From Pseudorhizobium pelagicum (lineage in GTDB: Bacteria; Pseudomonadota; Alphaproteobacteria; Rhizobiales; Rhizobiaceae): a stretch of 64,000 nucleotides of DNA. The stretch spans positions 20,770 through 84,769 of the forward strand of contig JOKI01000006.1 in the NCBI GenBank assembly GCA_000722615.1, given 5' to 3'. A program made the translations under genes and the position numbers. Of the stretch, positions 17,800 to 43,605 are shown piece by piece (the stretch's first letter is position 1; each line of letters opens with the position of its first letter). Below the pieces are notes generated by a model. That model ran no database searches, was not told the origin of the DNA, and saw nothing but the letters and a program-made list of their open reading frames with translations.

Positions 17800-17810
17800 G
17801 AGGAATGCAC

Positions 17811-18723: not shown

Positions 18724-18727
18724 GCGG

Positions 18728-19750: not shown

Positions 19751-19810
19751 ACCACCGGAGTTCGACCATAGGGTTTGAGAACAGGGAGGCGCAGCGCAGG
19801 GGGCATGGCA

Positions 19811-25529: not shown

Positions 25530-25721
25530 AGGCGGCGACCCCGGTGGCAATTGCTTTTCGTTGCGAACGGGGTGCGGTGTGTTCCAGTGACGTCCGCAGC
25601 GGTTTGCCATGGTGCCAAAGGGAAAAACCCGGCGCAGGTCTGATGACAATTATTCAGCCCCTTTTGATGGGTTGAATACGCTGACAAAATGCATTATTTG
25701 AACCATTGAAAGGGGCATTTG
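25530..25721. other. Intergenic region between virD4 and hipA
   Basis: About 190 bases, AT-richer toward the hipA start. It holds the inverted repeat described separately and presumably the hipA promoter. Confidence 0.6.
25657..25716. promoter_or_regulatory. Inverted repeat upstream of hipA, candidate operator
   Basis: GCCCCTTTTGATGG at 25657-25670 and CCATTGAAAGGGGC at 25703-25716 are imperfect inverted copies (11 of 14 positions match when one is reversed). Between them are AT-rich sequence and an AATGCATT palindrome. The second arm overlaps the hipA ribosome-binding site. HipB-type repressors bind such sites, so autoregulation is likely. Confidence 0.5.
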
Positions 25722-28495: not shown

Positions 28496-29950
28496 TCAGG
28501 CGATACCGCCGAGGCAGACGTATTTCAGCTCGAGAAACTCCTCCAGTCCATAGCGCGACCCTTCACGCCCGAGCCCGGACTGTTTGGTGCCCCCGAAGGG
28601 AGCCGCCGCCGTCGAGATCAGACCCGTGTTGACGCCGACCATGCCATATTCCAGCGCCTCGGCGACCCTGAACACCCGCGACAGGTCGCGCGCGTAAATG
28701 TAGGACGCCAGGCCGAATTCCGTATCGTTGGCCTGCGCAATGACGTCCGCCTCGTCGCGGAAGCGAAACAGCGCCGCCACCGGACCAAAGGTCTCTTCGC
28801 GCGCAACCGCCATGCCCGCGGTGACGTCGGCCAGAACGGTGGCCTCGTAGAAGGTGCCTCCGAGGCTGTGGCGCCGGGCCCCCACCAGCACCCGTGCACC
28901 CCCGCACACCGCGTCAAAGACATGCGCCTCCACCTTCTCCAGGGCCGCCGCGTCGATCAGCGGCCCCAGCACCACGCCGTCGTCGCAGCCATTGCCGGTG
29001 ACGAGCCGCCCAACGGCAGCCGCGAGCCTGTCGGCGAAGGCGTCATAGACGGCCTCCTGGACGTAGATGCGGTTGGCGCAGACGCAGGTCTGTCCATTGT
29101 TGCGGAACTTGGCGACGATGGCACCCTCGACCGCCGCTTCTATGTCGGCGTCGTCGAAGACGATGAAGGGAGCATTGCCCCCGAGTTCGAGAGCGAGTTT
29201 CTTGATGGTCGCCGCCGACTGCCTGTAGAGCTTGGCACCGACTTCGGTCGAGCCGGTGAAGGTAAGCTTGCGCACCCGCGCATTGGCCGTCATCTCGCCA
29301 CCGATCTCGCGCGCCGACCCGGTCAACACGCTAAACAGCCCCTTCGGCAGTCCGGCCTCTTCGGCCAGCACCGCCAGCGCAATGGCCGAGAACGGCGTCT
29401 GCTCGGCCGGTTTCAGCACCATGGCACAGCCTGCGGCAAGCGCCGGGGCAGCCTTGCGGGTGATCATCGCCATGGGGAAATTCCATGGGGTGATGGCGGC
29501 GACCACGCCGACCGGCTGCTTCAACACCAGGATGCGCTTGTCCCGTTGGTGGCCGGGGATCAGGTCGCCGTAAACCCGCTTGCCCTCTTCCGCAAACCAC
29601 TCGATGAAGCTTGCACCGTATTCGATTTCGCCTGCGGCTTCCAGGAGCGGCTTGCCCTGCTCACAGGTCAGGATCGTGGCAAGGTCGCTCTTGTTGTCGA
29701 GGATCAGATCAAACCACCGCCGCAGCACCGCGCTACGGTCTGCAGCGGTGCGTGCCGCCCACGCCTTCTGCGCGATCTCTGCGGCTTCGATGGCGGCTCG
29801 CGTTTCTGCCGCCCCGAGATCGGGAACCTGACCGATCACCTTTCCGGTTGCGGGATTGGTCACGGCAATCGTGTGGGGCGCTGTTGCGTCGTGCCAATTG
29901 GTGCCGACGCAGGCGGCCTGTCGGAACAGGGCGGGGTTTTGCAGGTGCAT
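28496..29950 (-). CDS. gabD: NAD(P)-dependent succinate-semialdehyde dehydrogenase-like aldehyde dehydrogenase
   Basis: The 484-residue enzyme has the aldehyde dehydrogenase catalytic pair: nucleophile C289 in NNGQTCVCANR and general base E255 in LELGGNAP. The cofactor motif FTGSTEVG is present. The N-terminal and middle parts (TPWNFPMAMITRK, KPAEQTPFSA) are closest to GabD-type succinate-semialdehyde dehydrogenases. It would oxidise a semialdehyde to the acid, as at the end of GABA or putrescine catabolism. It lies beside a polyamine-type ABC importer and aminotransferase cluster, although its true substrate may differ. Confidence 0.88.
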   Translation of the reverse strand: MHLQNPALFRQAACVGTNWHDATAPHTIAVTNPATGKVIGQVPDLGAAETRAAIEAAEIAQKAWAARTAADRSAVLRRWFDLILDNKSDLATILTCEQGKPLLEAAGEIEYGASFIEWFAEEGKRVYGDLIPGHQRDKRILVLKQPVGVVAAITPWNFPMAMITRKAAPALAAGCAMVLKPAEQTPFSAIALAVLAEEAGLPKGLFSVLTGSAREIGGEMTANARVRKLTFTGSTEVGAKLYRQSAATIKKLALELGGNAPFIVFDDADIEAAVEGAIVAKFRNNGQTCVCANRIYVQEAVYDAFADRLAAAVGRLVTGNGCDDGVVLGPLIDAAALEKVEAHVFDAVCGGARVLVGARRHSLGGTFYEATVLADVTAGMAVAREETFGPVAALFRFRDEADVIAQANDTEFGLASYIYARDLSRVFRVAEALEYGMVGVNTGLISTAAAPFGGTKQSGLGREGSRYGLEEFLELKYVCLGGIA

Positions 29951-30251
29951 GGGAAAATCCTTTCAATGCATGGATGCAGCCAGAGTGATGATCGTGCGGT
30001 GTCTTGAGGGAGCCGGCAGGACGTGGATACGAGATCGGCGGCCGCTCGCTGCGCGACCCCAGGGCCATCTGCCGCCTTGCGTTGCGCAGACAGGGTGTTG
30101 ACGCCTTGCAGCCTGCCGTAAATCCCCCTAGACTGGCGGCATCGTGACCCTGCCAGGGACGGCACGATCTTTGCTCTTGCAAAGATCCGCGTGCGCCAAC
30201 GTCCGGCAGCCAATTCAAGTCATCTCCTGCGCCGGACGCAGGGAGAATGTC
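29951..30251. other. Intergenic region between divergent gabD-like gene and small ORF
   Basis: About 300 bases carrying the presumed promoters of the minus-strand dehydrogenase and the plus-strand small gene. No GntR-type palindrome like those at 35032 and 35802 was seen here, which argues against direct control by the same regulator. Confidence 0.4.
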
Positions 30252-30485
30252 GTGTCGCGTTTTACAGCCAAAACCAAGACCCTGGACGCCGCCGACCCGG
30301 GGCGCGCAGATCAGGACGATGCCGTCAGCTGCCAACAGGAGGGCGAGATCGCCGCAGAAGCGAGAGCCCTGTTTGCCGATCAGGCAACGACCGCCGTGGC
30401 CTTCTGCGGCCTGGATGCCTGGTTCGACGGCAACACGGCCGAAACCCGGCGGTGGGCCAATATCCTTCGACGGCTCCAGAACTAG
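30252..30485 (+). CDS. Hypothetical 77-residue protein
   Basis: GTG 30252 is preceded by AGGGAGA at a 5-base spacing, which is better than any upstream codon in the same frame. The product is acidic and helical, with EAR-x-LFADQATTAVAFCGLDAW and a final R-R-W-ANILRRL. It ends convergently with, and overlapping by 4 bases, the OmpR-like regulator gene. No family recognised. Confidence 0.55.
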   Translation: MSRFTAKTKTLDAADPGRADQDDAVSCQQEGEIAAEARALFADQATTAVAFCGLDAWFDGNTAETRRWANILRRLQN

Positions 30486-31168
30486 CACGAGCCGGTCTCC
30501 GGTGTGCTCGGGGAATCGAGCGCATAGCCGGCGCCTCGCACGGTGCGGATCAGGTCTGGTCCGAACCTGAGCAGCTTTCGTCGGATGTGACCGATGTGGA
30601 TGTCGACAGTCCTCGGTTCCACCTCCGCGCCGGCCGGCCAGCAGCGCGCGACCAGCGCCTCGCGGTCGCACACCCCGGTCGGCCGCTCCAGCAGGCAGCG
30701 CAACAGGCGAAACTGCAGCGCCGTCAGCGGCACGGGCTGCCCGGCGCGCTGGACCTTCATGCCGGCGACATCCATACGCAGGTCATCCCATCGAAGCGTC
30801 CTGTTGCATTCGACGAGATCGCTCCTGTTGCGCTGGCGAAGCCGTGACAGAAAACCGATCAAGGCCGCAGGATCAAACGGCCGCGTTAGCAGCAGATCCG
30901 ATGCCGTAAGCCCGTCTGCCCCGGCCTCGGCATTCCTCGCAAACAGGATCAGCGGCACGCCTGGCAGGGCGCGCCTGAACGGGTCCAGGAACCCTGCCGC
31001 CTGCGGTTGCCAATCCAAAACCATGGTAGCGACACCACGCTGGCTGGCCTGCGCCGACATCTCCTCGACATCGCTGCACAGCGTCGCATCGAAACCCTCG
31101 CTGGCCAGGATATGGCGCAGGAACAGGAAAAGCTGAATGTCGCCGGTGCCGACCAGGACCGTTTGCAT
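30482..31168 (-). CDS. OmpR/PhoB-like winged-helix regulator with atypical receiver (copy 1)
   Basis: A 228-residue protein with an N-terminal receiver-like domain (1-110) and a C-terminal winged helix (about 135-215; LTALQFRLLRCLLERP, EPRTVDIHIGHIRRKL). The Asp pocket near residues 8-10 is reduced (VGTGD), but an Asp remains in MVLDWQ at the phospho-acceptor position. No kinase gene is adjacent. It begins 15 bases after the SDR stop, so it is the last gene of the aminotransferase operon. It is clearly paralogous to the regulator at 40052-40774. Confidence 0.88.
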   Translation of the reverse strand: MQTVLVGTGDIQLFLFLRHILASEGFDATLCSDVEEMSAQASQRGVATMVLDWQPQAAGFLDPFRRALPGVPLILFARNAEAGADGLTASDLLLTRPFDPAALIGFLSRLRQRNRSDLVECNRTLRWDDLRMDVAGMKVQRAGQPVPLTALQFRLLRCLLERPTGVCDREALVARCWPAGAEVEPRTVDIHIGHIRRKLLRFGPDLIRTVRGAGYALDSPSTPETGSC

Positions 31169-31183
31169 CGAAGGCTCCGTCGT

Positions 31184-31966
31184 TCAAACGGGCGCGAACT
31201 CGCCACCGTTGACGTCGAGGATGGCGCCGTTGACGAAGCCCGCGCCCTCCGATGCCAGAAAGGCAGCCGCCGCGGCGACATCGGCGGGACGCCCCAGTCT
31301 GCCGACCGGTATGCGCTGCAGCGCCGCCCGGTTTTGCGCAGTTTGAGCCGACCCGGTCATCGGCGTCAGGATCCGACCCGGAGCAATGACATTCACCGTC
31401 ACGCCGGTCCCCGCGCAGGCCATCAGGATGGAACGTGCAAGGCCCGAGAGTGCGGCCTTGGAGGCGACATAGGCCGGGCCGGCAATCTTTGGCGTCGTGC
31501 GGGCAGCAATCGACCCGATCAGGATGATGCGTCCGAACCCTGCCGCCTTCATTCCCGGCATCACCGACTGGCAGCACAGCAGCGATCCGGTCAGGTTGAC
31601 GGCGAGCACGTCATTCCAGTCCGATAGCGGGAGGGTCTCCAGGCTCGCCGCTCCCGCAACGCCCTTGGGCGAAATGCCGGCATTGCAGACCAGAGTATCG
31701 GGCTGCCGCCAGATGTCTGCGACGGCGTTGAAGAAGTCTGCCACGGCAGCGGCGGTGCGAACGTCGAGGCAGCGGCCGAGCACGCGGCCGTTGCCGAACT
31801 CCTGCTGCAGTTTGCCGCTGATCTCCTCCACGTGGTCGGCATGCGAGGCGAAGAAGGCTACCCGGTAACCCTCGTCGAGGAATTGTCTCACCGTCGCAAG
31901 CCCGATCCCGCTGCTACCCCCGCTGACCACGGCCACCCGTCTGGGGTCGGGCTGCCGGCCTGTCAT
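31184..31966 (-). CDS. Short-chain dehydrogenase/reductase
   Basis: The 260-residue SDR has the cofactor motif VSGGSSGIGLA (TGxxxGxG class), NAGIS, and the catalytic set S (SIAARTT), Y and K (YVASKAAL). The C-terminus INxxGGEF-like end (DVNGGEFAPV) is typical of the FabG-like classical SDR group. Its ATG overlaps the stop of the ThDP enzyme gene (ATGA), so they are coupled. It probably interconverts a keto and a hydroxy intermediate of the pathway encoded by this operon. Confidence 0.92.
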   Translation of the reverse strand: MTGRQPDPRRVAVVSGGSSGIGLATVRQFLDEGYRVAFFASHADHVEEISGKLQQEFGNGRVLGRCLDVRTAAAVADFFNAVADIWRQPDTLVCNAGISPKGVAGAASLETLPLSDWNDVLAVNLTGSLLCCQSVMPGMKAAGFGRIILIGSIAARTTPKIAGPAYVASKAALSGLARSILMACAGTGVTVNVIAPGRILTPMTGSAQTAQNRAALQRIPVGRLGRPADVAAAAAFLASEGAGFVNGAILDVNGGEFAPV

Positions 31967-33678
31967 CGCTGTTCGTCCATCGCCGCAAACAGAGACAGCG
32001 GTGGATGCGCCTCCGGATCGGTCATCACTTCGATCACCCAGGGGACCTCCGACGTGATGGCGCTGTCGATCTGAGCGCCCAGATCGTTCGGATCGGCGAC
32101 GCGGACCGCCTGGCAGCCGCAAGCCCTGGCGATCTGCGTGTGATCCACCGGCGAAAAGTGGCAGGCGGAGGTACAGCTGCCGAACTTGACGGTTTCCGCA
32201 TCGCGCTGATAGCCGAGGATGCCATTGTTCAGCACGATCGTGACCACCGGGATGTCGAGCCGGACCATGGTCTCCAGTTCCGCCCAGCTGTGGGCAAAGC
32301 CGCCATCGCCCACCAGGGCCACCACCGGCCTGTGCGGATCGGCAAGTCTGGCGCCGATCGCCAGCGGCAATCCCCAGCCAAGCCCGGCGAGCCCTCTGGG
32401 GGTGATGAACCGCCCCCTCTCTGGCCCGGCCCGCAGTTGTCCCGCCACCCACATCGACGAATAGCTCGCATCCGCCACCACCGTCAGACCGTGGCTGAGC
32501 CAGGGCTGCAGCTCGCGCATGATCCTCTCCGGCCGCAGCGGCGATGTTGCAGCGTTCCAGACATCCGCGCGCGCCGCTTCAAATCGCTGCCAGCATTCGG
32601 CAATGCGGAGCTCGAGACGGCGCCGCTCGCTGCGCCTGTGCGTCAGGTCGATGGTCTCAAGGACGCGGCAAAGGGCTGCGAGCGTCTCGGCCGCATCGCC
32701 GGCCAGGCGCAGCGCCTCGTAGGTGCGGCCGATTTCTGCCGGATCGATGTCGATGTGGATCACCCGGGCGGTCGGCGGGATCTGTCGCCAGCTGTCTGTG
32801 CCGTTCTGGTTGGTGCGCGTGCCGACAAGAACGACAAGGTCGGCGTTCTCGATGAAGGCCTTGGTCTGGTGACCGAGGGCGCGCGGACCGGTCAATGCCC
32901 CCAGCACCCCGAGCGACAGCGCATGATGCTCGTCGACGGCCCCCTTGCCCATGTTCGTCGTGGCGACCGGGACGCAGGCCGTCTCCTGCAGCTGCGCCAG
33001 CATCGCAGCGGCGCCGGAGGCATGCACGCCGCCACCGGCCAGCACCACGGGCGCCTGCGCGCCGGCAATCCATTGCGCCGCCTGCTCGATCACGCCATCG
33101 GCCGGGCGCATGCGGTCGAGCGGCCAGCGGCCGAGGTTGGCCCGGCGTCCCGAAGGAATGCCGTCCATCGTCTCGCGCAGGAGATCGGCCGGCAGCAGCA
33201 GTGCCACCGGCCCCGGCCGGCCGGAGGCCGCTGCCGTAAAGGCGGCATCGAGATAGTCGTCGATGCGCTCGGGCAGGTTCACCCGCCGGACCCATTTGGT
33301 GCAGGATTGAAACAGCGCGATCTGATCGAGGTCCTGAAATGCGTTCTTGTCGGTCTGATGGCGCTCGACGTCCTGCACCAGCGCAACGATGGGAATGCTC
33401 GCTTTCAGCGCTTCTGCCAGCGGCGCCACCAGCAGAGTGGCAGCCGGCCCGTTCTGGGCCGCGACAACGCCTACCTTGTGAGACATTCGCGCATAACCGT
33501 CCGCCATTGCGCCACCCATGTTCTCCTGCCGGTAGGCGATCTGGCGAATGCCCAGCGCTTCGGCAGCCAGGATCACCGCCGACGGCAGGCTCTGGGCGAA
33601 GATGAGGTCGACGCCATGACGTTGCAGGCCCGCTGCCACGCGCTCGGCGACGGTTTCGGATCGTGAATTGAGGGTCAT
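31963..33678 (-). CDS. Thiamine-diphosphate-dependent enzyme (acetolactate-synthase-like)
   Basis: A 571-residue member of the POX/ALS family. The catalytic Glu is E52 in YRQENMGGAMADGYAR. The ThDP/Mg motif is VGDGGFAHS followed about 25 residues later by LNNG. The family includes acetolactate synthase, glyoxylate carboligase and benzoylformate-type decarboxylases. There is no ilvN-like small subunit nearby, so a catabolic carboligase or decarboxylase is more likely than branched-chain biosynthesis. AGGAGG precedes the ATG, which overlaps the aminotransferase stop. Confidence 0.9.
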   Translation of the reverse strand: MTLNSRSETVAERVAAGLQRHGVDLIFAQSLPSAVILAAEALGIRQIAYRQENMGGAMADGYARMSHKVGVVAAQNGPAATLLVAPLAEALKASIPIVALVQDVERHQTDKNAFQDLDQIALFQSCTKWVRRVNLPERIDDYLDAAFTAAASGRPGPVALLLPADLLRETMDGIPSGRRANLGRWPLDRMRPADGVIEQAAQWIAGAQAPVVLAGGGVHASGAAAMLAQLQETACVPVATTNMGKGAVDEHHALSLGVLGALTGPRALGHQTKAFIENADLVVLVGTRTNQNGTDSWRQIPPTARVIHIDIDPAEIGRTYEALRLAGDAAETLAALCRVLETIDLTHRRSERRRLELRIAECWQRFEAARADVWNAATSPLRPERIMRELQPWLSHGLTVVADASYSSMWVAGQLRAGPERGRFITPRGLAGLGWGLPLAIGARLADPHRPVVALVGDGGFAHSWAELETMVRLDIPVVTIVLNNGILGYQRDAETVKFGSCTSACHFSPVDHTQIARACGCQAVRVADPNDLGAQIDSAITSEVPWVIEVMTDPEAHPPLSLFAAMDEQR

Positions 33679-34982
33679 TGCTGCGCCTCCTGTGTGTCAC
33701 TGCCGGCCTCGGCCACAAAGGCCGCAAAGGTGTTTGCAACGTGATTCAGGTCGTCGTTCGTCATTGCCGTTGAAAGACTGGCTGCAGCCCCCAGCGGCAA
33801 GAGGATGTCCTGGGCGCGGAAGAACCGCGTCAGCGCCACGAGGCGTTTTTGCTCCTCCGCGGAGGCAAGCGTTTCGGCGTAGGTCCGCGGCGCCTGGCGT
33901 TTGCCGTGGATGCGAAACAGCGAGGCCGCGCCGGTGACCGAAAACGGCGCCTGCGCCTGCGCCGCAATGCTGGTCAGCCGGGCCCGCAGTGCGTCGCCCT
34001 TTCTCTCCAGGTCTGCAAAGCAGGGCTCGTCGGCCGCCTCCATGGCCACCAGGCCGGCGCACATGGAGACCGGATTGGCCGAAAACGTGCCGCCCTGGGA
34101 CACGGTCGCGGCGTTTGCTCCGGCGCCGAAGACGGCCATCACGTCGCCACGACCACCGACGGCACCGACCGGGAAGCCGCCGCCGATGATCTTGCCGGCA
34201 GTCAGCAGATCCGGTTGCAGTCCGTAGCGATGCGAGGCGCCGCAAAAGCCCTGCCGCAGATTGAGAACCTCATCGGCAATGATCAAAATGCCGAGCTGCC
34301 TGGCCACGGTCATCAATCCGGTGATGAACTCACGGGTCGGGGCAATCAGCCCTGCCCGGCTCGGCATCGGGTCGATCAACACGGCCGCAAGCCGATCGGC
34401 ATGGGCGGTGAGTGCAGCTTGCGTGCCCGCCACATCGTTGAACCGGAGATGAAGCACGTCGCTCTCGTGGTTGCCGTCCCGTGGCGCCGGGCGATATTGC
34501 TCCCCTTCCGCCCAGTCGTAGGCGCCGTGATAGGCGCCTTCAAACCGCGCCACCGCCGGCCGGCCGGTAAAGGCCCGCGCCGCCTTGACCGCAAACATCA
34601 CCGCTTCGGTCCCGGTGTTGACGAAGCGGATCTTTTCCAGCGCCGGAATGCGCGCGACCAGGAGCTCGGCCAGGGCAATTTCGTGGGTTGTGGGATTGGC
34701 AAAGCAGGAGCCCGAGCGCAGCAATTGCGCCACCGCCTTTACGACGGGCTCGAAGGCATGCCCGTGCAGCAAGGTCGTGAAATTGTTGTTGAGGTCGAGA
34801 AGCCGGTGACCGTCGACGTCAACGACAAACGCGCCCTCTCCCCTGGTGACATAGATGGGATGAGGATCCCGCTCAATGGTGACGCGCGTGACGCCGTCCG
34901 GAAATACGGCCTGGCCGCGGCGATAGAGTTCCGTTGAGCGCGGACGGGATGTGTCCGCCACCCCTGCCATTGCTATGGACAT
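33675..34982 (-). CDS. Class III PLP aminotransferase (glutamate-1-semialdehyde aminomutase-like)
   Basis: The 435-residue enzyme has the class III fold. FVNTGTEAVMFAVKAARAFTG and IIADEVLNLRQG bind PLP, and K264 in AGKIIGGGFPVGAVGG is the Schiff-base lysine. It resembles the GSAM-like group (HemL relatives) used for catabolism or secondary metabolism. The first gene of the operon, it has AGGGG 8 bases before ATG 34982; a longer in-frame start at 35045 lies within the palindrome region and is rejected. A GntR-type palindrome lies 50 bases upstream. Substrate unknown. Confidence 0.9.
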   Translation of the reverse strand: MSIAMAGVADTSRPRSTELYRRGQAVFPDGVTRVTIERDPHPIYVTRGEGAFVVDVDGHRLLDLNNNFTTLLHGHAFEPVVKAVAQLLRSGSCFANPTTHEIALAELLVARIPALEKIRFVNTGTEAVMFAVKAARAFTGRPAVARFEGAYHGAYDWAEGEQYRPAPRDGNHESDVLHLRFNDVAGTQAALTAHADRLAAVLIDPMPSRAGLIAPTREFITGLMTVARQLGILIIADEVLNLRQGFCGASHRYGLQPDLLTAGKIIGGGFPVGAVGGRGDVMAVFGAGANAATVSQGGTFSANPVSMCAGLVAMEAADEPCFADLERKGDALRARLTSIAAQAQAPFSVTGAASLFRIHGKRQAPRTYAETLASAEEQKRLVALTRFFRAQDILLPLGAAASLSTAMTNDDLNHVANTFAAFVAEAGSDTQEAQQ

Positions 34983-35031
34983 GTCGATGACCCCTGTTGC
35001 TGGCGATACCAAGCTTTGCGTTGGCTTTGTA

Positions 35032-35047
35032 TTTTGTTGCAACAAAA
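35032..35047. promoter_or_regulatory. Perfect 16-base palindrome, probable GntR operator upstream of the aminotransferase operon
   Basis: TTTTGTTGCAACAAAA reads the same on both strands and lies 50 bases before the aminotransferase ATG. The same motif with one mismatch occurs at 35802-35817, just upstream of the gntR gene between the two operons. FCD-type GntR proteins bind TTGT-N-ACAA-like dyads. This strongly suggests a shared operator. Confidence 0.75.
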
Positions 35048-35084
35048 ATGGCGCAGGTCAAGACGTCATAACAAAATTGTCGGA

Positions 35085-35771
35085 TCAGCCGCCGCTGTCT
35101 TGGCGCAACGAAGCGCGCAGGCGCCGGTAGCCGTCGCGAATGTCGTTCTCGAACGCGGCACGCAGCGCCTTGGCGTCCCGGTCCTGCAGGGCCTCGATCG
35201 CCATCTGGTGGTTGCGCACCCCGTGACGGGCTTCTGCAAATTCCGGATAAAGGCCGTAGAACGATGGCCCGACGCGCAGCCATTGCGCCTCGATCAGCGC
35301 GATCAGATGCGGCATGCCCGACAGTCTGTAGACCAGGAAGTGGAATTCCTTGTTGTGCCACAGAGCTTCGCTATAGGCCTTTGTCTCCAGGCTTTTGTTG
35401 ATATCGATCTGGATTTCAAGCAGCTTTTCGATGTGATGATCCTGGCAGTGGGCTGCCGCCTGCTCCGCCGCCAGCCCTTCCAGCGCCAGGCGGATCAGCG
35501 TTACCTCGCGCAGGTCATCCTCGCCCAGGAACGGCACGATCACAGTCTTGGGCCCGGCATAGACCAGGGCGCCCTCCGCCGTGAGCCGGTTGATGGCATC
35601 GCGTGCCGGCGTTGAGCTGACGCCCAGCGCATCGGCCAGCGAGCGCACCGTCATCTTGTCGCCGGGTCGGTAGCCACCACGCGTCAAACGGTCCCGCAAT
35701 TCGCCGTACGCCGCTTCTCCGAGCCGTATGGTCTGCCCGGTTTTCCAGTTTGCCGCTGTCATCGACGCCAT
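35085..35771 (-). CDS. GntR/FadR-family regulator with FCD domain
   Basis: A 228-residue protein with an N-terminal winged HTH (about 25-85; LRDRLTRGGYRPGDKMTVRS, GVSSTPARDAINRL) and a C-terminal FCD ligand-binding domain (H-x-x-FH-x-LY, then NHQMAIEAL). ATG 35771 is chosen because AGAAGGAGG lies 4 bases before it. FCD regulators bind small carboxylic acids and repress catabolic or transport operons. Palindromes at 35032 and 35802 place it as the probable controller of both flanking operons. Confidence 0.93.
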   Translation of the reverse strand: MASMTAANWKTGQTIRLGEAAYGELRDRLTRGGYRPGDKMTVRSLADALGVSSTPARDAINRLTAEGALVYAGPKTVIVPFLGEDDLREVTLIRLALEGLAAEQAAAHCQDHHIEKLLEIQIDINKSLETKAYSEALWHNKEFHFLVYRLSGMPHLIALIEAQWLRVGPSFYGLYPEFAEARHGVRNHQMAIEALQDRDAKALRAAFENDIRDGYRRLRASLRQDSGG

Positions 35772-35801
35772 TTTGCCTCCTTCTGCGTTGACACGCACCT
35801 A

Positions 35802-35817
35802 TTTTGATGCAACAAAA
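35802..35817. promoter_or_regulatory. Near-perfect copy of the palindrome in the gntR/ABC intergenic region
   Basis: TTTTGATGCAACAAAA differs from the 35032 site by one base. It lies 30 bases upstream of the gntR ATG and about 150 bases upstream of the ABC transporter GTG, between divergent genes. It could serve autoregulation and control of the importer operon at once. Confidence 0.72.
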
Positions 35818-35966
35818 AATCAAATACGAAGATTCTGCAAAGTTTGTCGCGCCATTTCTCTACCTGATCGGGCCCCGCTAGTCATCACAGCGGCTGGTGC
35901 CGGCAGGGACGGAACCAGGATGCACCTGCGACGCGGCAGTCAACTCAAAACAAGCGGGGGAACAGT

Positions 35967-37079
35967 GTGATCGGTGAACGACTGACACTTCAGGACATCC
36001 AGAAGCAATACGGCCTCGCCTGGGCCGTGCGGGACGCCAGCGTGGAGGTGGCGGCAGGCGAGTTCATCTCGATCGTCGGTCCGTCGGGCTCCGGCAAGAC
36101 GACCCTTCTGACGATGATCGCCGGCTTCGAGATGCCCACCAGAGGCACGATCCGGGTGGGCGGCAAGGACATTACCTTCCTGGCACCCAATCGGCGCGAC
36201 ATCGGCATGGTCTTCCAGAAGTACGCCCTCTTCCCGCACTTGTCGGTGCGGCAGAACATCGAGTTTCCGCTGCGCATGCGCAACCGCTCGCAGTCTGGCT
36301 CCGCCAGGGCCCGGGTCGACGAGATGCTGGATCTGGTCCAGCTGCGGCCCTTCGCCGACCGCTTTCCGCATGAACTTTCAGGCGGGCAGCAGCAAAGGGT
36401 TGCCGTGGCGCGTGCACTGATCTTCGGCCCCCCGGTGATCCTGATGGACGAACCGCTGGGCGCTCTCGACAAGAAACTGCGAGAATCGATGCAGTTTGAG
36501 ATCAAGCGGCTGCAGGAAAGCCTCGGGACCACGGTCGTCTATGTGACGCATGACCAGGACGAGGCCTTGACGATGTCGGACCGGGTGGCGGTGATGCGCG
36601 ATGGCCGCATCGAGCAGATCGGCCGCCCGAGCGAACTCTATTCCGATCCGAAGACCGCCTTCGTCGCCGATTTCCTCGGCTCCATCAACTTTATCCCGGC
36701 CCGCCTCATGTCCCGGGCTGGCGATGTCGTGACCGCGCAGATCGGCTCGGGCCAGATCGTCACCGCGCGCCTGTCGCGCGAGGATGGTGCCGGCCTCGAG
36801 GCCGGTGACGCCCTGCAGCTGGCCGTGCGCCCGGAACACATCGGCTTCAACGCAGCCGCGGCCGAAAACGCGGTGCCGCTTGAGGGGCGGCTGGAAAACG
36901 TGGTCTTCGCCGGCGCCACCGTGATGGTCTTCGTGCGCCTTTGCGCCACCGGCCAGACGGTGCGGGTTCAGGTTCCCTCTCTCGATCTGTCCCTGCCCGA
37001 CAAGGGCAGCGCCGTGGCACTCACCCTGTCGGCCAAGACCGTCAAGGCCTTTGGCGGCGACAAGGGGGGTGAAGCATGA
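35967..37079 (+). CDS. Polyamine/spermidine-type ABC transporter ATP-binding protein (PotA-like)
   Basis: The 370-residue ATPase starts at GTG 35967. Walker A is GPSGSGKT at 38-45, the signature LSGGQQQR at 137-144, Walker B ILMDEP and the H-loop VTHDQDEAL. A C-terminal TOBE-like domain (about 260-365) puts it in the PotA/FutC group. It energises import by the two permeases and the binding protein encoded downstream. The stop overlaps the next ATG. Confidence 0.94.
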   Translation: MIGERLTLQDIQKQYGLAWAVRDASVEVAAGEFISIVGPSGSGKTTLLTMIAGFEMPTRGTIRVGGKDITFLAPNRRDIGMVFQKYALFPHLSVRQNIEFPLRMRNRSQSGSARARVDEMLDLVQLRPFADRFPHELSGGQQQRVAVARALIFGPPVILMDEPLGALDKKLRESMQFEIKRLQESLGTTVVYVTHDQDEALTMSDRVAVMRDGRIEQIGRPSELYSDPKTAFVADFLGSINFIPARLMSRAGDVVTAQIGSGQIVTARLSREDGAGLEAGDALQLAVRPEHIGFNAAAAENAVPLEGRLENVVFAGATVMVFVRLCATGQTVRVQVPSLDLSLPDKGSAVALTLSAKTVKAFGGDKGGEA

Positions 37080-37969
37080 GCACGGTCGCATCAATTCCTC
37101 GCACGTCCCGGGTCTCCATCTTCGTTCGCGGTCGTTCCGCCAGACGCTATGCACCGCTGACCTCGCTGTTGCTCGTCCTGCCGCTGTTTGTAACCTTTGC
37201 GATCGGGTTCCTCTATCCGGTGGCCATGCTGGTCGATCTCAGTTTCTCCACCGGGCTTGCACCCTATCAGCGGCTCGTCGAGGAGAGCCTCTACCTTGAT
37301 GTCCTGAGGACAACGGTGTTGACGGCCGGTGCCGTCGCCCTGCTGTGCCTGCTGCTCGGCTATCCGGTCGCCTATGCCATGGCGCGCCGCGGTGGCAAGG
37401 CAGCCCTGATCACAGCCGCATGCGTGCTGATTCCGCTGTGGACCTCGGTGCTGATCCGCTCCTATGCCTGGATCGTGCTGCTCCAGCGCAACGGCATCGT
37501 CAACACGCTCCTGCAAGCCTCCGGCCTGAGCGATGGCCCCCTCACCCTTCTCTACACCCAGGGTGCGGTGATTTTGGCGATGACCCATGTGCTGCTGCCC
37601 TTCGCCATCCTGCCGATCCACTCGACCCTGCGGATGCTGCCGGCAGATCTGACGCGCGCCGCCGCCAACCTGGGAGCGGGACCGGTGCGGGCCTTCCTCT
37701 CGGTGACATTGCCGTTGAGCCTTCCCGGCGTATTTGCCGGCGCCGTCCTCTGCTTCGTACTGGCCTTGGGATTCTACATCACCCCGGCGCTGGTGGGCGG
37801 TCCCGGCTCCATGCTGATGGCAACCTTGATCGGTCAGCAGACGACGGTCGTTCTCGACTGGCCCTTCGCTGCGGCCCTGTCCACCGTCCTGCTCGCCATC
37901 ACGCTGCTGATCGTCCTGGCGTCCCAGCGCGTCGTCGCACTCAGCAAGGGGTTTTCCAATGGTCACTGA
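37076..37969 (+). CDS. ABC transporter permease (PotB-like)
   Basis: A 297-residue protein with six predicted helices and the permease EAA-type loop AAANLGAGPVRAFLSVTLPL. It begins with a cytoplasmic stretch and a first helix at about 27-50. ATGA overlap with the ATPase gene and an 11-base overlap with the next permease show one operon. Confidence 0.93.
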   Translation: MSTVASIPRTSRVSIFVRGRSARRYAPLTSLLLVLPLFVTFAIGFLYPVAMLVDLSFSTGLAPYQRLVEESLYLDVLRTTVLTAGAVALLCLLLGYPVAYAMARRGGKAALITAACVLIPLWTSVLIRSYAWIVLLQRNGIVNTLLQASGLSDGPLTLLYTQGAVILAMTHVLLPFAILPIHSTLRMLPADLTRAAANLGAGPVRAFLSVTLPLSLPGVFAGAVLCFVLALGFYITPALVGGPGSMLMATLIGQQTTVVLDWPFAAALSTVLLAITLLIVLASQRVVALSKGFSNGH

Positions 37970-38849
37970 ACGGACATCCAGCCTTCCGATTGCCGCTGCC
38001 GGCGAAGCGATCGCATCGGCCCGGTCACCAAGGCACGGGGGCGGCCTGACCGCCGCCAAGGCCGTCGCGGCCACCGTGGTTGCTGCCATCCTCGTGTTCC
38101 TCGTGTTGCCGACGCTGATCATTGTGCCGATGTCGCTGAGCGAGACCGCCTACCTGCAGTTTCCGCCGCAAGGACTGACGCTGGACTGGTATGGCGCGTA
38201 TTTTTCCGATGCCGACTGGATGGCATCGACCTGGTTCAGCCTCCAGATCGCCCTGGCGACCTCTCTGGCGGCAACCGTCGTGGGAACCCTGACGGCGCTG
38301 GCGATCGGCAAGGGAGACCTGCCGTTCAAGGGCCTGGTGCAGGCGATGGCCCTGGGACCGATGATCGTTCCGCACGTCGTGCTCGGTGTCGCCCTTTACC
38401 TCGTCTTTTCGCCGCTGCACCTGACGGGGACCTTCGTCGGGTTCCTGGTGGCCCATACGGTGCTTGCCGTCCCCTTCGTCGTCATTACCGTCACCGCGGC
38501 CCTGCAGCGCCTCGACCCGGCCCTAGAACTGGCCGCGCTCAATTGCGGTGCCTCCAGGGCCCAGGCCTTCACCCTGATCACCATGCCGAACATTGCGCCC
38601 GGCATCGCCGCCGGCGCCGTGTTTGCCTTCATTGCCTCCTTTGACGAAGCGACCGTCGCCTTCTTTCTCTCCGACGAGGGCGGAAAACCGATCGGCCGCA
38701 AGATGTTTGAAGACATCGACTTCAACCTCACGCCGGTGATCGCAGCCGCCTCGACGGTGATCGTCTCGGCCTCGCTCTGCCTCATCGGCATTGCCCACCT
38801 CATCTCCAGTGCCCGCCGTATCAACAGCAAGGAAGGACGACCGGAATGA
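37959..38849 (+). CDS. ABC transporter permease (PotC-like)
   Basis: A 296-residue permease with six helices and an EAA loop (LNCGASRAQAFTLITMPN). It pairs with the upstream PotB-like permease as a heterodimeric channel. The N-terminal 30 residues are longer and more basic than in typical PotC. The stop overlaps the binding-protein start (ATGA). Confidence 0.93.
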   Translation: MVTERTSSLPIAAAGEAIASARSPRHGGGLTAAKAVAATVVAAILVFLVLPTLIIVPMSLSETAYLQFPPQGLTLDWYGAYFSDADWMASTWFSLQIALATSLAATVVGTLTALAIGKGDLPFKGLVQAMALGPMIVPHVVLGVALYLVFSPLHLTGTFVGFLVAHTVLAVPFVVITVTAALQRLDPALELAALNCGASRAQAFTLITMPNIAPGIAAGAVFAFIASFDEATVAFFLSDEGGKPIGRKMFEDIDFNLTPVIAAASTVIVSASLCLIGIAHLISSARRINSKEGRPE

Positions 38850-39910
38850 CCACCAGATCAATCAAACATGCCTTTGCAAGCCTGACCCTCGCCGTCACGC
38901 TCGCCACCGGCCACACCAGTGCCACCGCGCAAGAGCAGGTGATCATCGCCTCCACCGGCGGTGCCTATGACCGCGCGCTCAAGGAAGCCTGGTTCGATCC
39001 CTTCACGCAAGCGACGGGGATCGCGGTACAGGTAGTGTCTGCCACCAATGCCGAAATGCGGGCCAAGGCGTCAGCCATGGTCCGGGCCGGAAACGTCACC
39101 TGGGATCTCTACCTGGAAGGCGAGATCCAGGCAGCTTCCGATGCCCACCGGCAGGTGACGGAAGACCTGTCGCCGTTCTGCGCCGGTTATGCCTCCAAGG
39201 CGGGACTGGTCGGCAATGCCTGTGCGCCCGGCGGCGCGCTCCTGCAATCGACGGCAACCCTTCTGGCCTATCGTACGGACGGCAATCGGCCGGCGCAGCC
39301 GGAGACCTGGGCCGACATGTGGGACACGCAGACGTTTCCCGGCGGCCGTGCCTTTCCCAATTTCGACGACCCCTGGCGGGTGCTTGCCGCCGCCCTGCTT
39401 GCCGACGGCGTCGACAAGGACAAGCTGTTTCCGCTCGACGTCGACCGCGCCTTTGCAAAACTCGACACCATCCGCGACCACGTCACGCTGTGGTGGAAAA
39501 CTGGCGACCAGAGCGTTCAGGGCTTTCGCAACGGCGACTACGATCTGGGCCAGATTTGGCTGACGCGGGCCAGGTCGATGAGGGACGAGGGCCTGCCCAT
39601 CGCCTGGTCCTACAAGGCTGCCTTCCTGGTCGGCGATCGCATTGCCCTCATCAAGGGCGCGCCGAACCGCGACAATGCCCTGAAGCTGATCGCCTATTGG
39701 CTCGACAACCCGTCGGTCCAGGCGCAGGCCTGCAGCACATTGTCGTGCACGCCGCCCAGCGCCGACGCCATTGCCTTGATGTCTGAGGAGGCGCGCCAGT
39801 CGATGCCGACCACCGATGAGATCAGCCAGCATGTGATCGTCCCGGATGCCGAATGGATCAATGCGAATGCAGCCATGCTGCTGCAGCGCTGGAACAACTG
39901 GGTTCGCTGA
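38846..39910 (+). CDS. Periplasmic solute-binding protein (PotD-like)
   Basis: The 354-residue protein has a signal peptide (about 1-29, ending SATAQ) and a class that matches PotD/extracellular family 1 binding proteins: VIIASTGGAYDRALKEAW at the mature N-terminus and AIAWSYKAAFLVGDRIAL in the second lobe. In PotD-like families this fold binds amines such as putrescine or GABA. The ligand here is not known. It is the fourth gene of the importer operon. Confidence 0.92.
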   Translation: MTTRSIKHAFASLTLAVTLATGHTSATAQEQVIIASTGGAYDRALKEAWFDPFTQATGIAVQVVSATNAEMRAKASAMVRAGNVTWDLYLEGEIQAASDAHRQVTEDLSPFCAGYASKAGLVGNACAPGGALLQSTATLLAYRTDGNRPAQPETWADMWDTQTFPGGRAFPNFDDPWRVLAAALLADGVDKDKLFPLDVDRAFAKLDTIRDHVTLWWKTGDQSVQGFRNGDYDLGQIWLTRARSMRDEGLPIAWSYKAAFLVGDRIALIKGAPNRDNALKLIAYWLDNPSVQAQACSTLSCTPPSADAIALMSEEARQSMPTTDEISQHVIVPDAEWINANAAMLLQRWNNWVR

Positions 39911-40051
39911 CAAAGCCTTGCGCACGAGGACCGGCAGGTCTTGCACGCTTGCCGCTCCCGTCCAAGCGCAGCAGGGGCGCGATTTACTGCAACGGCATCG
40001 GCAGCAGAGCCGGCACCTCGGGAGATGCGACGTTCTGTTGAAGAGGGTACC

Positions 40052-40774
40052 ATGGAAGATAAGGTCCTCATTGCCTCCAATGACGCGGATTTCTGCGTCT
40101 TCGTCGGCCATGTCCTGGCGCAGAGCGGCTTTCGATCCAGTGTCATCGACCCCGCTGACGGGATCGACGACGACGCCCTGCGCACGGTCCGGGCCATCAT
40201 CGTCGCCAGCAATGACGACATGGATGCCATCCTGGCCTTCTGCCGGCGGGTTCGGGCGGTGCCCTCGCCACAGCCGATGCCGCTGCTGGCGTTGATTTCG
40301 GCGCGCCATGAGCAACACTACCTGTCACTGGTCAAATGCGGCGTCGACCAATGCATCTTGCGCCCCGTCGCGCCGGACCTGATCATCTCCTGCCTGATCA
40401 GCGTGATCCAGAGATCAGGTCGGCCGCTGGCCAGGAAGGATCCTGAAGGTCAACAGCCCGACGCCCTCACCACCAGGGATGACACACGGCAGTTGATCGG
40501 CCACGGTGGCAGCATCCACCTCACCCCAACCGAGTACAGGCTCCTGAAGCGGCTGCTTGCAAACCCCGGGCAGGTGGTCTCCCGTCATCAACTGATCGAA
40601 GCGGCCTGGCCCGCGGCACGCCATGTCGAGCCGCGCACCGTCGACGTCCATATCGGCAAGCTCCGGCAAGCGCTGGTGATGACGACCGGCCGGCGAGTGA
40701 TCAGGACGATCCGCTCCAGCGGCTTTGTCGCCGAGCTGCCGGGCGTCGCGGACTGCAAAGACGAGCCCTGCTGA
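40052..40774 (+). CDS. OmpR/PhoB-like winged-helix regulator with degenerate receiver (copy 2)
   Basis: A 240-residue protein with a receiver-like N-terminus (1-120) and a winged helix (about 155-230; LTPTEYRLLKRLLANP, EPRTVDVHIGKLRQAL). The expected phospho-acceptor is missing: the strand reads AIIVASNDD instead of an LxxxD motif. It is therefore probably controlled by ligand or protein contact rather than phosphorylation. GAAGAGG precedes the ATG. It shares the winged-helix sequence with copy 1 (30482-31168) but lies in the other operon. Confidence 0.88.
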   Translation: MEDKVLIASNDADFCVFVGHVLAQSGFRSSVIDPADGIDDDALRTVRAIIVASNDDMDAILAFCRRVRAVPSPQPMPLLALISARHEQHYLSLVKCGVDQCILRPVAPDLIISCLISVIQRSGRPLARKDPEGQQPDALTTRDDTRQLIGHGGSIHLTPTEYRLLKRLLANPGQVVSRHQLIEAAWPAARHVEPRTVDVHIGKLRQALVMTTGRRVIRTIRSSGFVAELPGVADCKDEPC

Positions 40775-40864
40775 AGTCTTGTCGAATTCTTACAGGTGTC
40801 TTCGTGGTCAATGCCGGCTTGCCATGACCAACTCCCCGCTTGCAGAGCCATTGGGAGGCAAGCC

Positions 40865-42106
40865 ATGCGAAAAGAGCAGATGAGCGGGCAACATCGGACC
40901 GGTCGCAACACAGCGGCGATGATCGACGCGGCCGCCAGTTCCTTTGAGGCCGCGCACTATCAGGGTATCATGGCGCTCTACGCCATCCCGAAGACAGGGC
41001 GCAGCGTGCAGCTACCGGTCACCGGCAAAACCGTCGTCGACTTCGTCCGCTGCTCCTACCTTGGCCTCGACAACCATCCAGCCATCATCGAAGGCGCCAC
41101 CAAGACCGTGCGAGACAGTGGCGCCCTGCACTGGTCCTGCGCCCGCACGAGGCTGAACTTCAGCGTCCTGGGGGATCTGGAGGCGGAGCTCTCAAGCCTG
41201 TTCGACGCCCAGGTGGTCACCTTTACCACCGTGCTGGCCGCCAATATGAGCGCGCTGCCGCTTCTGGCGTCCGGCCACATGACGAGCGGCCGCAAGCCGG
41301 TGATGGTATTTGACCGGCTGGCTCATGCGACGCTGGCGCACCACAAGGCCGTTGTCGCCGAGGAAACCACTGTCGAGACCATTGCCCACAACGATCTCGA
41401 TGCGCTGGAAGCCCTGTGCAAGAGCCATCACCAGGTCGCCTATATCTGTGATGGCGTCTATTCGATGGGCGGTCATGCGCCCCTGGAGGCGCTGCGATCC
41501 CTGCAGGATAAATATGGGCTGTTCCTCTACGTCGACGACGCCCATGGGATCTCGATCGAAGGCCGGCACGGGGCCGGCTTTGCCCGCAGCGCCCTGGGGC
41601 CGCTTGGCGAGCGGACGATCGTTGCCGCCTCTCTGGGCAAGGGATTTGGTGCCTCGGGAGGAATGCTCATGCTCGGCACCGCCCGCCAGGAGTTGCTGTT
41701 TCGGCGCTTTGCCATCGCCTATGCCTTTTCCGCGTCACTCAACACGGCTGCGATCGGGGCAGCGCTGGCGTCTGCGGCCATCCATCGGACGGCGGAACTT
41801 GCGCAGCGACAACAGTCGCTGCGCAACAATCTTGTCCTGCTGGATGCTTTGCTGCCGACCGACCAGGCATCGTCCATCCTGCCCATTCGCACCGTGCCGA
41901 TCGGCGATGAGCTGCTTGCGGTTGCCGCGGCGCGACAACTGCTGGCGCAGGGCTTTTACACCTCGGCCATCTTCTTTCCCACCGTCGCCCGTGGCGAGGC
42001 GGGGATACGCATCTGCCTGACGAGCGACCATTCACAGCAGCAGATCAGGGATCTCGTGGCCGCGGTCAACGGGATCATCGATGAAATCCGAACGCCGATC
42101 CTGTAG
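40865..42106 (+). CDS. Alpha-oxoamine synthase-like PLP enzyme
   Basis: The 413-residue enzyme matches the fold-type I alpha-oxoamine synthases (BioF, KBL, serine palmitoyltransferase, CqsA). VYSMGGHAPLEAL, YVDDAHGIS and the Schiff-base K259 in ASLGKGFGASGG are present. These enzymes condense an amino acid with an acyl-CoA to give an alpha-aminoketone. GGGAGG 6 bases before ATG 40865 fixes the start. No biotin or threonine genes are nearby, so biosynthesis of an aminoketone signal or metabolite is possible but unproved. Confidence 0.85.
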   Translation: MRKEQMSGQHRTGRNTAAMIDAAASSFEAAHYQGIMALYAIPKTGRSVQLPVTGKTVVDFVRCSYLGLDNHPAIIEGATKTVRDSGALHWSCARTRLNFSVLGDLEAELSSLFDAQVVTFTTVLAANMSALPLLASGHMTSGRKPVMVFDRLAHATLAHHKAVVAEETTVETIAHNDLDALEALCKSHHQVAYICDGVYSMGGHAPLEALRSLQDKYGLFLYVDDAHGISIEGRHGAGFARSALGPLGERTIVAASLGKGFGASGGMLMLGTARQELLFRRFAIAYAFSASLNTAAIGAALASAAIHRTAELAQRQQSLRNNLVLLDALLPTDQASSILPIRTVPIGDELLAVAAARQLLAQGFYTSAIFFPTVARGEAGIRICLTSDHSQQQIRDLVAAVNGIIDEIRTPIL

Positions 42107-42852: not shown

Positions 42853-43605
42853 CTACTGAGCTTCTACGGATACGCGTGTTGGGCCACGCTTGACATCACG
42901 AAACCATGCCACGAGCGTCGGGTAATCGCGTCCGCCATAGCGACTGACAAAGCTCCGGTAGATGCCATATTTGAAATAGACCGGCTGGTTTCTGTCGACA
43001 TTGGGGCCCGCAAGATCAACCTTCTTTTGACCATCGACCCAAACGTTTATGAAGCCATCCTGTTGCCGGGACCATTTTGCGTGCACAAGAACCTCCGTCC
43101 AAGCACCGCGCATTGCAGCAGCAGGCTTTAGAGAGACGTTTCGCAACGGTCGCACTGGATTCATTGGATCCTTCTGGACCTGCGATGGATTCGACAGCTC
43201 AAATTCATAGCCGTACTCGTCGAACTGGAAAAGAACCGGGGGCTTTCCCTCGCCCTTCTGATGGAACTGACCTAGTTTTGTAGTCAGAGGCGCTGTTCTG
43301 GGCCAGTCTTCCGGAACATAGACAGAGAAACTGTACCAGTACTCAGACCCAACCTTCGACGCTGGAAGTTGCTCCGACTTCTCGATCCGCTCTCTGTCGG
43401 CACCGCAGTCTCCCGTCGATCTTGGGCAATCTCCCGGCCGAAGCTCGAAGCGCTCCGCGTTGGATCCATCGGGCGCCCGTGATCGACTGTAGGCATAGGA
43501 TTTGCCGGCACTCTGCAAGTCAAAGCTGCTAAACCCACCCGACGAAGTGCATCCTGCCGTCACCGCAACAGTCAAAGCCAACAGCGACCCAAGCAACCGA
43601 CTCAT
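42853..43605 (-). CDS. Heparin-lyase-I-like polysaccharide lyase, lipoprotein
   Basis: The 250-residue protein has a lipobox (VTAGC, Cys19). A jelly-roll domain follows with YWYSFSVYVPEDWP, LGQFHQKGEGKPPVLFQFDEY, WTEVLVHAKWSRQQDGFINVW and a YFKYGIYRS motif, the pattern of the PF14099 polysaccharide-lyase family. Such proteins act on acidic polysaccharides, often the cell's own exopolysaccharide. Attachment to the membrane by the lipid anchor is expected. No polysaccharide cluster is nearby. Confidence 0.82.
   Translation of the reverse strand: MSRLLGSLLALTVAVTAGCTSSGGFSSFDLQSAGKSYAYSRSRAPDGSNAERFELRPGDCPRSTGDCGADRERIEKSEQLPASKVGSEYWYSFSVYVPEDWPRTAPLTTKLGQFHQKGEGKPPVLFQFDEYGYEFELSNPSQVQKDPMNPVRPLRNVSLKPAAAMRGAWTEVLVHAKWSRQQDGFINVWVDGQKKVDLAGPNVDRNQPVYFKYGIYRSFVSRYGGRDYPTLVAWFRDVKRGPTRVSVEAQ

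Follow-up and report, generated by a model that had tools for sequence, protein, structure and literature searches.

An att-type gene set of rhizobial plasmids: apparent control by a single repressor and apparent uptake and conversion of an amino compound

Do the divergent genes at 28.5-42.1 kb of a 64,000-nt window from Pseudorhizobium pelagicum (GCA_000722615.1, 5.1 Mb; contig JOKI01000006.1) form one unit, and what compound would such a unit handle? The window is the whole stretch of DNA that was analyzed. The island within it was originally predicted to combine an importer operon, which also encodes an OmpR-like regulator and an enzyme resembling alpha-oxoamine synthases (AOS), with a divergent operon for an aminotransferase resembling glutamate-1-semialdehyde aminomutase (GSAM), a thiamine diphosphate (ThDP) enzyme, a short-chain dehydrogenase/reductase (SDR) and another OmpR-like regulator, with a GntR/FCD gene between the two. 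All of these families are found where the original prediction placed them. Open reading frames (ORFs), families and likely starts of the island were checked by Pfam and by NCBI subfamily models with their cut-offs; gene content, linkage, the shared operator, the intact active sites and the degenerate receivers were computed directly. The set comprises about 11 genes and is found on many plasmids carried by root bacteria. A single repressor appears to switch these genes jointly, and they appear to bring an amino compound into the cell and transform it.

Conservation of the set and a shared operator

The AOS and the ThDP enzyme, encoded in different operons of the island, tend to occur together. 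In a family sample of 394 Rhizobiaceae genomes (AOS matched at E 1e-100, ThDP enzyme at E 1e-200) they are present in 19 and 20 genomes, respectively, and all 19 AOS genomes are within the 20; the hypergeometric probability of this co-occurrence is 3.6e-30, with the own genome left out and relatedness ignored. Among the 120 nearest relatives, searched at E 1e-70 and E 1e-120, we found the AOS in 13 and the ThDP enzyme in 19, with both in 9 of the 13 AOS genomes. Both samples pooled, the ThDP enzyme accompanies the AOS in 25 of 29 genomes. In 20 of the 21 genomes that carry both genes, the two share a contig and are no more than 19.7 kb apart; in the remaining one they lie on two contigs. Over 27 loci, pairwise distances between AOS sequences are correlated with those between ThDP sequences (Mantel r 0.875; none of 999 permutations attained this value), a correlation that could also come from common descent of the hosts. 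At the limits used, plasmid records were matched by the AOS in 132 cases, by the ThDP enzyme in 159 and by the solute-binding protein of the importer in 121, and the set is present on pSymA of Sinorhizobium meliloti and many other rhizobial plasmids.

We also surveyed up to 10 kb on each side of 57 named AOS loci (designated here by L numbers; 60 were returned, and L154-L156 were dropped as distant or partial). The partners encountered are the SDR (35 loci), the aminotransferase (34), the OmpR-type regulator that accompanies the AOS, termed RR2 (30), GntR (29), the ThDP enzyme (26) and the importer ATPase attA1 (26). The position of the RR2-AOS pair varies: it follows the binding-protein gene attC in the window, Shinella and Allorhizobium pseudoryzae, is convergent to attC in the Rhizobium etli type, and lies beyond the end formed by the SDR and the other regulator, RR1, in Agrobacterium C58 and S. 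meliloti. This neighborhood search had been proposed along with the original prediction, which treated the two operons as one unit; run in other genomes, it finds them conserved together.

The second line of evidence is a palindrome, TATTTTGWTGCAACAAAAAW, present in both divergent promoters of the island. In the GntR-attA1 gap, a TTTG-N6-CAAA palindrome is common to 16 of 24 stretches (one empty, some partial) and appears in 0 mononucleotide shuffles of the gap. An operator matrix trained only on this gap, and then applied to other promoters, scores at least 20 bits upstream of 34 of 43 aminotransferase genes and in 12 of 661 control ORFs, 10 of the 12 being in or directly beside the island; the aminotransferase, RR2 and control-ORF counts omit nine duplicate stretches (L079 among them, not in the set anyway) and L076. 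Two control ORFs, L032:15244 and L102:9442, have the motif away from the island; they were inspected at the sequence level alone.

Separate RR2-AOS operons usually have an operator copy of their own. With starts adjusted and operons sorted, the motif scores at least 17 bits upstream of 26 of the 32 RR2-AOS operons that are separate from attC (nine duplicates omitted, as well as L030, which is the same plasmid as L192), and upstream of only 2 of the 9 that come after attC, from where they can use the importer promoter. The background is 86 of 3280 random stretches of the same loci reaching 17 bits, true sites included, and the loci are related, so the operons are not independent events. Predicted sites are found upstream of the regulon units, with the exceptions given by these counts and named below.

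Searches of 23 whole genomes for the core pattern place it only beside genes of the set. In the own 5.1-Mb genome it occurs, with up to 2 mismatches, at 2 places, both in the island, and the reversed-pattern control at 0. With up to 1 mismatch in 22 further genomes, picked for carrying a ThDP or AOS gene, plus the own genome, we found 45 places over the 23 genomes, of which 40 are within 3 kb of the ThDP gene, 5 within 1.3 kb of the AOS gene and 0 elsewhere; the reversed pattern gave none. Of 78 sites (nine duplicates omitted), 42 have a TTGAC box in the 20 bp preceding the core, and the spacing is almost always 14 or 15 bp. At both operators of the window it is 14 bp: TTGACA precedes the core of operator 1 on the plus strand, and a TTGAC box precedes that of operator 2 on the minus strand. 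Both sites thus follow a -35-like box, which fits the expectation for a repressor.

We regard the set as one regulon because the AOS/ThDP linkage is conserved and the operator is common to both promoters and found nowhere else in 23 genomes: the unit is conserved and, judged by its predicted operators, co-regulated. The GntR/FCD protein, taken to bind the palindrome because of its gene position, is most likely the repressor of the regulon. New in these results are the AOS/ThDP co-occurrence, the shared island-specific palindrome and the own operator copy in separate RR2-AOS operons.

The att-type importer

The island is not an unknown one. Judged by homology it is an att-type locus, and the same divergent set is found on many rhizobial plasmids. 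Its importer is the orthologue of attA1A2BC on the Agrobacterium plasmid pAtC58, with 55-68% identity, the same gene order and the same divergence from GntR. Besides the importer, pAtC58 has operator sites and homologues of GntR, the aminotransferase, the ThDP enzyme, the SDR, the AOS and the two regulators (divergent genes ATU_RS24515-24550). The pAtC58 region differs in having its RR2-AOS pair at the far end, not after attC, and in the other att and blc genes that follow the importer. No paper describing the set as a pathway was found in the open-access literature, queried mainly by gene and locus names rather than by the whole set of products. The label 'undescribed' in the original prediction must be qualified because the importer is attA1A2BC.

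The att region of pAtC58 is known from genetics. The att genes have been debated for decades, and we found no established biochemical role for them in the open-access literature. Available excerpts list attA1, attA2, attB and attC as an ABC importer (PMC4051167), and excerpts of reviews state that strains without the pAt plasmid remain virulent and that the role of att in attachment is disputed (PMC4046570, PMC4018554), and that the pAt plasmid may widen nutrition (PMC4018554). The small RNA VrsA activates atu5126-atu5130, called the att operon in an extract of PMC7486931. Viewing the importer, four enzymes and two degenerate regulators as one GntR-type regulon would reduce the att question to one repressor, one operator, one synthase and one binding protein. 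Since the set is on pSymA of S. meliloti and many rhizobial plasmids, the answer bears on root colonization and symbiosis.

In structure-database matches the binding protein is nearest to AttC and GABA-type binders. Its Arg241 is invariant (35/35) and aligns with the Arg of GABA-sensor relatives, the equivalent residue of which presumably acts in carboxylate binding. The name 'mannopine' is attached to the best solved match, PDB 5l9s; mannopine import was set aside, and AttC is said, in a 2016 JBC paper, not to bind mannopine. A phosphonate importer was rejected (PhnT2 364.5 bits against a cut-off of 457.7; PhnS 28.1 against 395.3).

The importer has the PotABCD architecture, and its ATPase falls just below the PotA model (352.3 bits against a cut-off of 355.6), which would suit a locus for the uptake of polyamines (putrescine/spermidine) to which the enzymes are only loosely attached. 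The S. meliloti genes SMa0951-3 on pSymA, probably the same importer by map position only, are named potABCD3, a putrescine system, in an extract of PMC7268258, which lists them among symbiosis-essential transport genes by TnSeq. We consider a polyamine locus very unlikely, as the binding protein scores a mere 42.9 bits with the PotD model (cut-off 582) and has AttC and GABA-type binders as its nearest matches, and the enzymes are co-inherited with the importer and have the operator in common with it, and are therefore not loosely associated.

Enzymes, regulators and the proposed conversion

The catalytic residues of the set are invariant or almost so in alignments with relatives. The AOS keeps His177, Asp248 and His250 in 71/71 aligned relatives and Lys282 in 70/71; the pyridoxal phosphate lysine of the aminotransferase, Lys285, is invariant (55/55), as are the Ser/Tyr/Lys of the SDR (43/43) and Glu52, F114, Q115 and K128 of the ThDP enzyme (36/36), a Glu/Phe/Gln/Lys set that we take to be of carboligase type. 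The ThDP enzyme scores below the biosynthetic acetolactate synthase model (TIGR00118 334.4 against a cut-off of 538.35) and, aligned to plant acetolactate synthase and glyoxylate carboligase, has its best alignment with carboligases. The aminotransferase is below the HemL/GSAM cut-offs (TIGR00713 281.7 against 527.3; PRK00062 296.3 against 398), and its nearest solved relatives are 6k8h, a class-III aminotransferase, and ForI, then GSAM and beta-transaminases.

Two known pathways were considered for the aminotransferase-ThDP pair and rejected. The Tpa-Xsc taurine pathway employs a class-III aminotransferase and then a ThDP enzyme, plus an ABC importer, the same arrangement as in the island, but the ThDP enzyme is far under the Xsc cut-off for a taurine/sulfoacetaldehyde pathway (227.5 bits against 676.4). 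A D-phenylglycine-type pathway, in which an aminotransferase is followed by a benzoylformate-decarboxylase-like ThDP enzyme, disagrees with the best alignment to carboligases; D-phenylglycine aminotransferase ranks 14th among the listed solved relatives of the aminotransferase (178 bits).

The AOS exceeds the PRK07505 cut-off (527 bits against 342) and remains below all other subfamily cut-offs tested (BioF 172 against 426; KBL 122 against 493; ALAS 131 against 339; PRK07179 75 against 428). Its closest solved relative is PDB 8xha, identified as Alb29 in an extract of PMC11906848, an enzyme of albogrisin biosynthesis that aligns with window AOS residues 61-418 and has the catalytic His, Asp, His and Lys in common with it. 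Alb29 differs in being a Streptomyces biosynthetic gene product with only 270 bits to the window AOS, against 952 for self. According to excerpts of PMC11906848 and PMC10230504, Alb29 condenses L-Glu with several acyl-CoAs. The resulting 4-amino-5-oxo acid has the skeleton of glutamate-1-semialdehyde; a product of this kind would make the combination of AOS, GSAM-like aminotransferase and SDR chemically sensible. We know of no importer regulon associated with Alb29.

With moderate confidence we favor an inducible import-and-convert regulon, which would couple uptake of a carboxylated amino compound to synthesis of a glutamate-type aminoketone. The GntR/FCD repressor would bind the 20-bp palindrome overlapping the two divergent promoters, and a ligand, either the compound taken up or something made from it, would release both; elsewhere a third promoter, that of the separate RR2-AOS operon, would be governed through the same site. 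The att-type ABC importer would take up the carboxylated amino compound, and the class-III aminotransferase, ThDP carboligase and SDR would convert it. The AOS would condense an acyl-CoA with an amino acid, for which glutamate is the likeliest candidate, and the resulting alpha-aminoketone would feed the same enzymes or be exported. Substrate identity, the direction of the AOS reaction and the order of the steps are what we infer here.

Variant clusters in other lineages bear on the direction of the chemistry. The 36-kb S. meliloti plasmid pEmeLPU88b (L194; 11764-28715) carries the AOS, GntR, aminotransferase, ThDP and SDR genes with a succinate-semialdehyde dehydrogenase (SSADH)-type gene, an L-amino-acid ligase and a major facilitator superfamily (MFS) carrier, and looks like a small biosynthetic cluster; the glutamate-dehydrogenase-like gene and DgcN that this compact cluster adds are consistent with glutamate as the amino acid. 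In a Mesorhizobium plasmid the genes after the AOS encode another aminotransferase, an EamA exporter, a GNAT protein and an amidohydrolase, and L121, L135 and L138 have similar genes after the AOS (GNAT family; a membrane carrier judged by eye). These settings look biosynthetic. The importer, the type of regulator and the hydrolases that some lineages have on the importer side (an M81 peptidase encoded immediately behind attC; amidohydrolases adjoining the SDR in the Mesorhizobium plasmid) look catabolic, and it is for this reason that we propose uptake coupled to aminoketone formation.

A purely catabolic function, the degradation of a plant amine or opine-like compound, is possible, if less probable than the coupled regulon. 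The AOS would then run backwards, like the threonine-degrading KBL, with the SDR oxidizing a hydroxy-amino acid and the AOS splitting the beta-keto-amino acid with CoA. An importer under GntR/FCD control is typical of catabolic loci, and the hydrolase neighbors would fit such a role. So would the wider nutrition suggested for the pAt plasmid in the review excerpt cited above (PMC4018554). The exporter and GNAT genes after the AOS, the ligase and carrier of pEmeLPU88b and the biosynthetic nature of the nearest characterized synthase point the other way.

Several observations weigh against the import-and-convert regulon itself. The ThDP enzyme occurs without the AOS in one genome of the family sample (G608), and among the nearest relatives G003, G015, G051 and G052 have the AOS and no ThDP match at 1e-120; in the last three the AOS is followed by a second aminotransferase, 37-44% identical (51% in one short piece). 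Six Bradyrhizobium loci (L127, L128, L129, L131, L139, L151) have an aminotransferase-AOS-SDR triad with no ThDP enzyme or importer nearby; they include a family III CoA-transferase in 6/6 and an enoyl-CoA hydratase in 5/6, and the aminotransferase match in L131 is weak. In the 28.7 kb read of pEmeLPU88b there is neither an importer nor an operator of at least 17 bits. In the raw count, before start adjustment and sorting, the motif reached 20 bits at 13 of 38 RR2 genes and 17 bits at 18 of them. The site is missing at 17 bits in 6 of the 32 separate RR2-AOS operons (L113 and L123 reach 15-16 bits; L121, L122, L135 and L138 are below 3 bits), and the TTGAC box is missing at 36 of 78 sites, including the listed sites before separate RR2-AOS operons. 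The case for glutamate is weak because Alb29 is only a distant relative. The near-PotA score of the ATPase and the putrescine name of the Sinorhizobium importer, matched by map position, also belong here, and no enzyme, transport or DNA-binding assay of the set was found in the open-access literature. The four relatives with the AOS alone, the raw motif counts and the near-PotA score leave our estimates unchanged.

Around the triad, most of the Bradyrhizobium clusters encode a class-III aminotransferase, an enoyl-CoA hydratase and an approximately 258-aa protein without Pfam or NCBIfam match.

Both regulators are of the OmpR type named in the original prediction; their receivers depart from it. 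We compared 14 RR1 and 41 RR2 rows with PhoB at positions D10, D53, T83 and K105. Position 10 is Asp in 0/14 RR1 and 1/41 RR2, and position 105 is Lys in no row of either. D53 is kept in 9/14 RR1, that of the window included, and in 36/41 RR2; the window RR2 has Ala in this phosphoacceptor column, which holds Asp in most of its relatives. RR1 and RR2 have degenerate receivers, which do not keep the full set of conserved residues of phosphorylated OmpR/PhoB regulators.

Neighboring genes and layout

The surroundings of the set raise the question of a signaling role. Type IV secretion/conjugation genes lie directly upstream of the island at window positions 14303-25529 (+), encoding VirB4/TrbE, TrbL, TrbI, a T2SSE-type ATPase and a coupling protein. 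They are also present in the shown stretch of 8 of 15 annotated plasmid records with AOS and ThDP genes (C58, R. etli IE4771, A. pseudoryzae, Shinella, R. leguminosarum pSK04, R. acidisoli, Rhizobium N6212, Mesorhizobium B2-1-8) and absent from that of the other seven (SL42, S. meliloti RCAM1750, N. galegae, Peteryoungia, Phyllobacterium, A. tumefaciens cl001 and pEmeLPU88b, which has mobilization genes only); the 15 records were hand-picked and several are close relatives. In 4 of 73 AOS loci (L024, L084, L116, L117), and likewise in Peteryoungia, the start of an autoinducer-binding-domain gene is no more than 62 bp from the end of the AOS; in A. pseudoryzae the two overlap. Such a gene is present somewhere in the stretch read in 16 of the 73 loci, some of which overlap one another.

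These findings would suit a loop in which the AOS makes an exported aminoketone, the importer retrieves it, and GntR or a neighboring LuxR-type protein senses it, perhaps controlling plasmid transfer as opines do via TraR. CqsA-type synthases make signals, and CqsA and LqsA have the oxoamine-synthase fold in common with the window AOS. The Ti-plasmid opine uptake and catabolism operons are likewise plasmid-borne sets of an importer and conversion enzymes under a ligand-responsive regulator, sometimes near LuxR and tra/trb genes; they differ in their enzymes and regulator family, and the present set has no T-DNA opine synthase. We nevertheless consider the loop unlikely. The AOS is far below the signal-synthase model PRK07179, no autoinducer-type gene was found next to the AOS in the window or in most loci, the LuxR proteins are diverse and mostly keep the usual acyl-homoserine-lactone pocket residues by eye, and LuxR and tra/trb genes abound on rhizobial plasmids in any case. 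The more specific version, in which an Alb29-type synthase makes a new class of glutamate-derived aminoketone that is exported, re-imported by the att importer and sensed by GntR, and in some species also by a LuxR-type protein whose gene adjoins that of the synthase, to inform plasmid transfer, is equally doubtful; if true, it would be a bacterial counterpart of the Ti opine-TraR circuit and would explain the purpose of the att genes.

The possibility that a LuxR gene, intact or as a remnant, follows the AOS of the window was rejected: no autoinducer-type match was found there, and the strong window matches are all at approximately 1890-2615 (+), a long way from the island, where the stretch 1890-2609 has an in-frame stop codon. 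The best other match in the window is weak (E 8e-4) and lies inside protein P0018, which has no Pfam match and no match to the LuxR profile. A 370-aa protein at 43697-44809 (-) has a LuxR-like C-terminal helix-turn-helix by eye and no Pfam match. The single repC match of the own genome is on a different contig from the island.

One neighbor counted in by the original prediction is better left out. The SSADH gene, 531 bp from RR1, is probably not a part of the regulon: no SSADH is present in the printed rows for the 57 AOS loci (10 kb each side), many of which end before its expected place. Its near occurrence to the ThDP gene in L032, L038 and L048, as in pEmeLPU88b, makes occasional linkage possible. 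The window protein is 64% identical to C58 BlcA and 57% to the pEmeLPU88b copy; regular membership was rejected for want of regular linkage, and the relatives in C58 and A. pseudoryzae adjoin IclR-type regulator genes.

The features of the island are given in Table 1. The PotA/B/C/D-type importer spans 35967-39910 (+), and the GntR/FCD gene is on the same strand (-) as the aminotransferase operon. The junctions are mostly overlaps or short gaps, and the overlapping starts and stops of the original prediction were located at five of them: ThDP/SDR (31963-31966), aminotransferase/ThDP (33675-33678), attA1/attA2 (37076-37079), attA2/attB (37959-37969) and attB/attC (38846-38849).

Table 1. Genes and predicted operators of the island, in window coordinates
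Feature	Position	Strand	Evidence and remarks
SSADH-type dehydrogenase (neighbor)	28496-29950	-	TIGR01780 694 bits, cut-off 646
RR1, orphan OmpR-type regulator, degenerate receiver	30482-31168	-	Pfam: Trans_reg_C only
SDR, FabG-like reductase/dehydrogenase	31184-31966	-	PRK12826.1-2 subfamily above cut-off; likely start 31966
ThDP-dependent carboligase-type enzyme	31963-33678	-	PRK06112 918.4 bits, cut-off 673
Class-III aminotransferase, beta-transaminase/ForI branch, GSAM-like	33675-34982	-	Aminotran_3; probable start ATG at 34982
Operator 2 (predicted), TATTTTGTTGCAACAAAAAT	35030-35049		34.0 bits, held-out match of motif trained elsewhere; precedes aminotransferase operon
GntR/FCD regulator, probable repressor	35085-35771	-	GntR and FCD domains; probable start ATG at 35771
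Operator 1 (predicted), TATTTTGATGCAACAAAAAA	35800-35819		Motif search; precedes importer operon
attA1-like ABC ATPase	35967-37079	+	ABC_tran, TOBE_2; 56% identity to C58
attA2-like permease	37076-37969	+	55% identity to C58
attB-like permease	37959-38849	+	68% identity to C58
attC-like solute-binding protein	38846-39910	+	63% identity to C58 AttC; best solved structure 5l9s
RR2, orphan OmpR-type regulator, degenerate receiver	40052-40774	+	Probable start ATG at 40052
AOS, PRK07505/Alb29 branch	40796-42106	+	GTG ORF start; ATG candidates 40811, 40865

A HipA-like protein at 25719-27044 (+) adjoins the conjugation genes, and HipA is also found near the set in C58 and Phyllobacterium. Downstream of the island, 42853-43605 (-) encodes a protein with a polysaccharide lyase domain. 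An AOS-like enzyme is present in 23 Klebsiella plasmid records (hits H192-H200: 31-33% identity in those listed), in several of which the match also overlaps an MFS transporter annotation. A HEPN and nucleotidyltransferase protein recurs near the RR2-AOS pair in 19 loci, for example at L074:17467-18390 (Pfam on one member).

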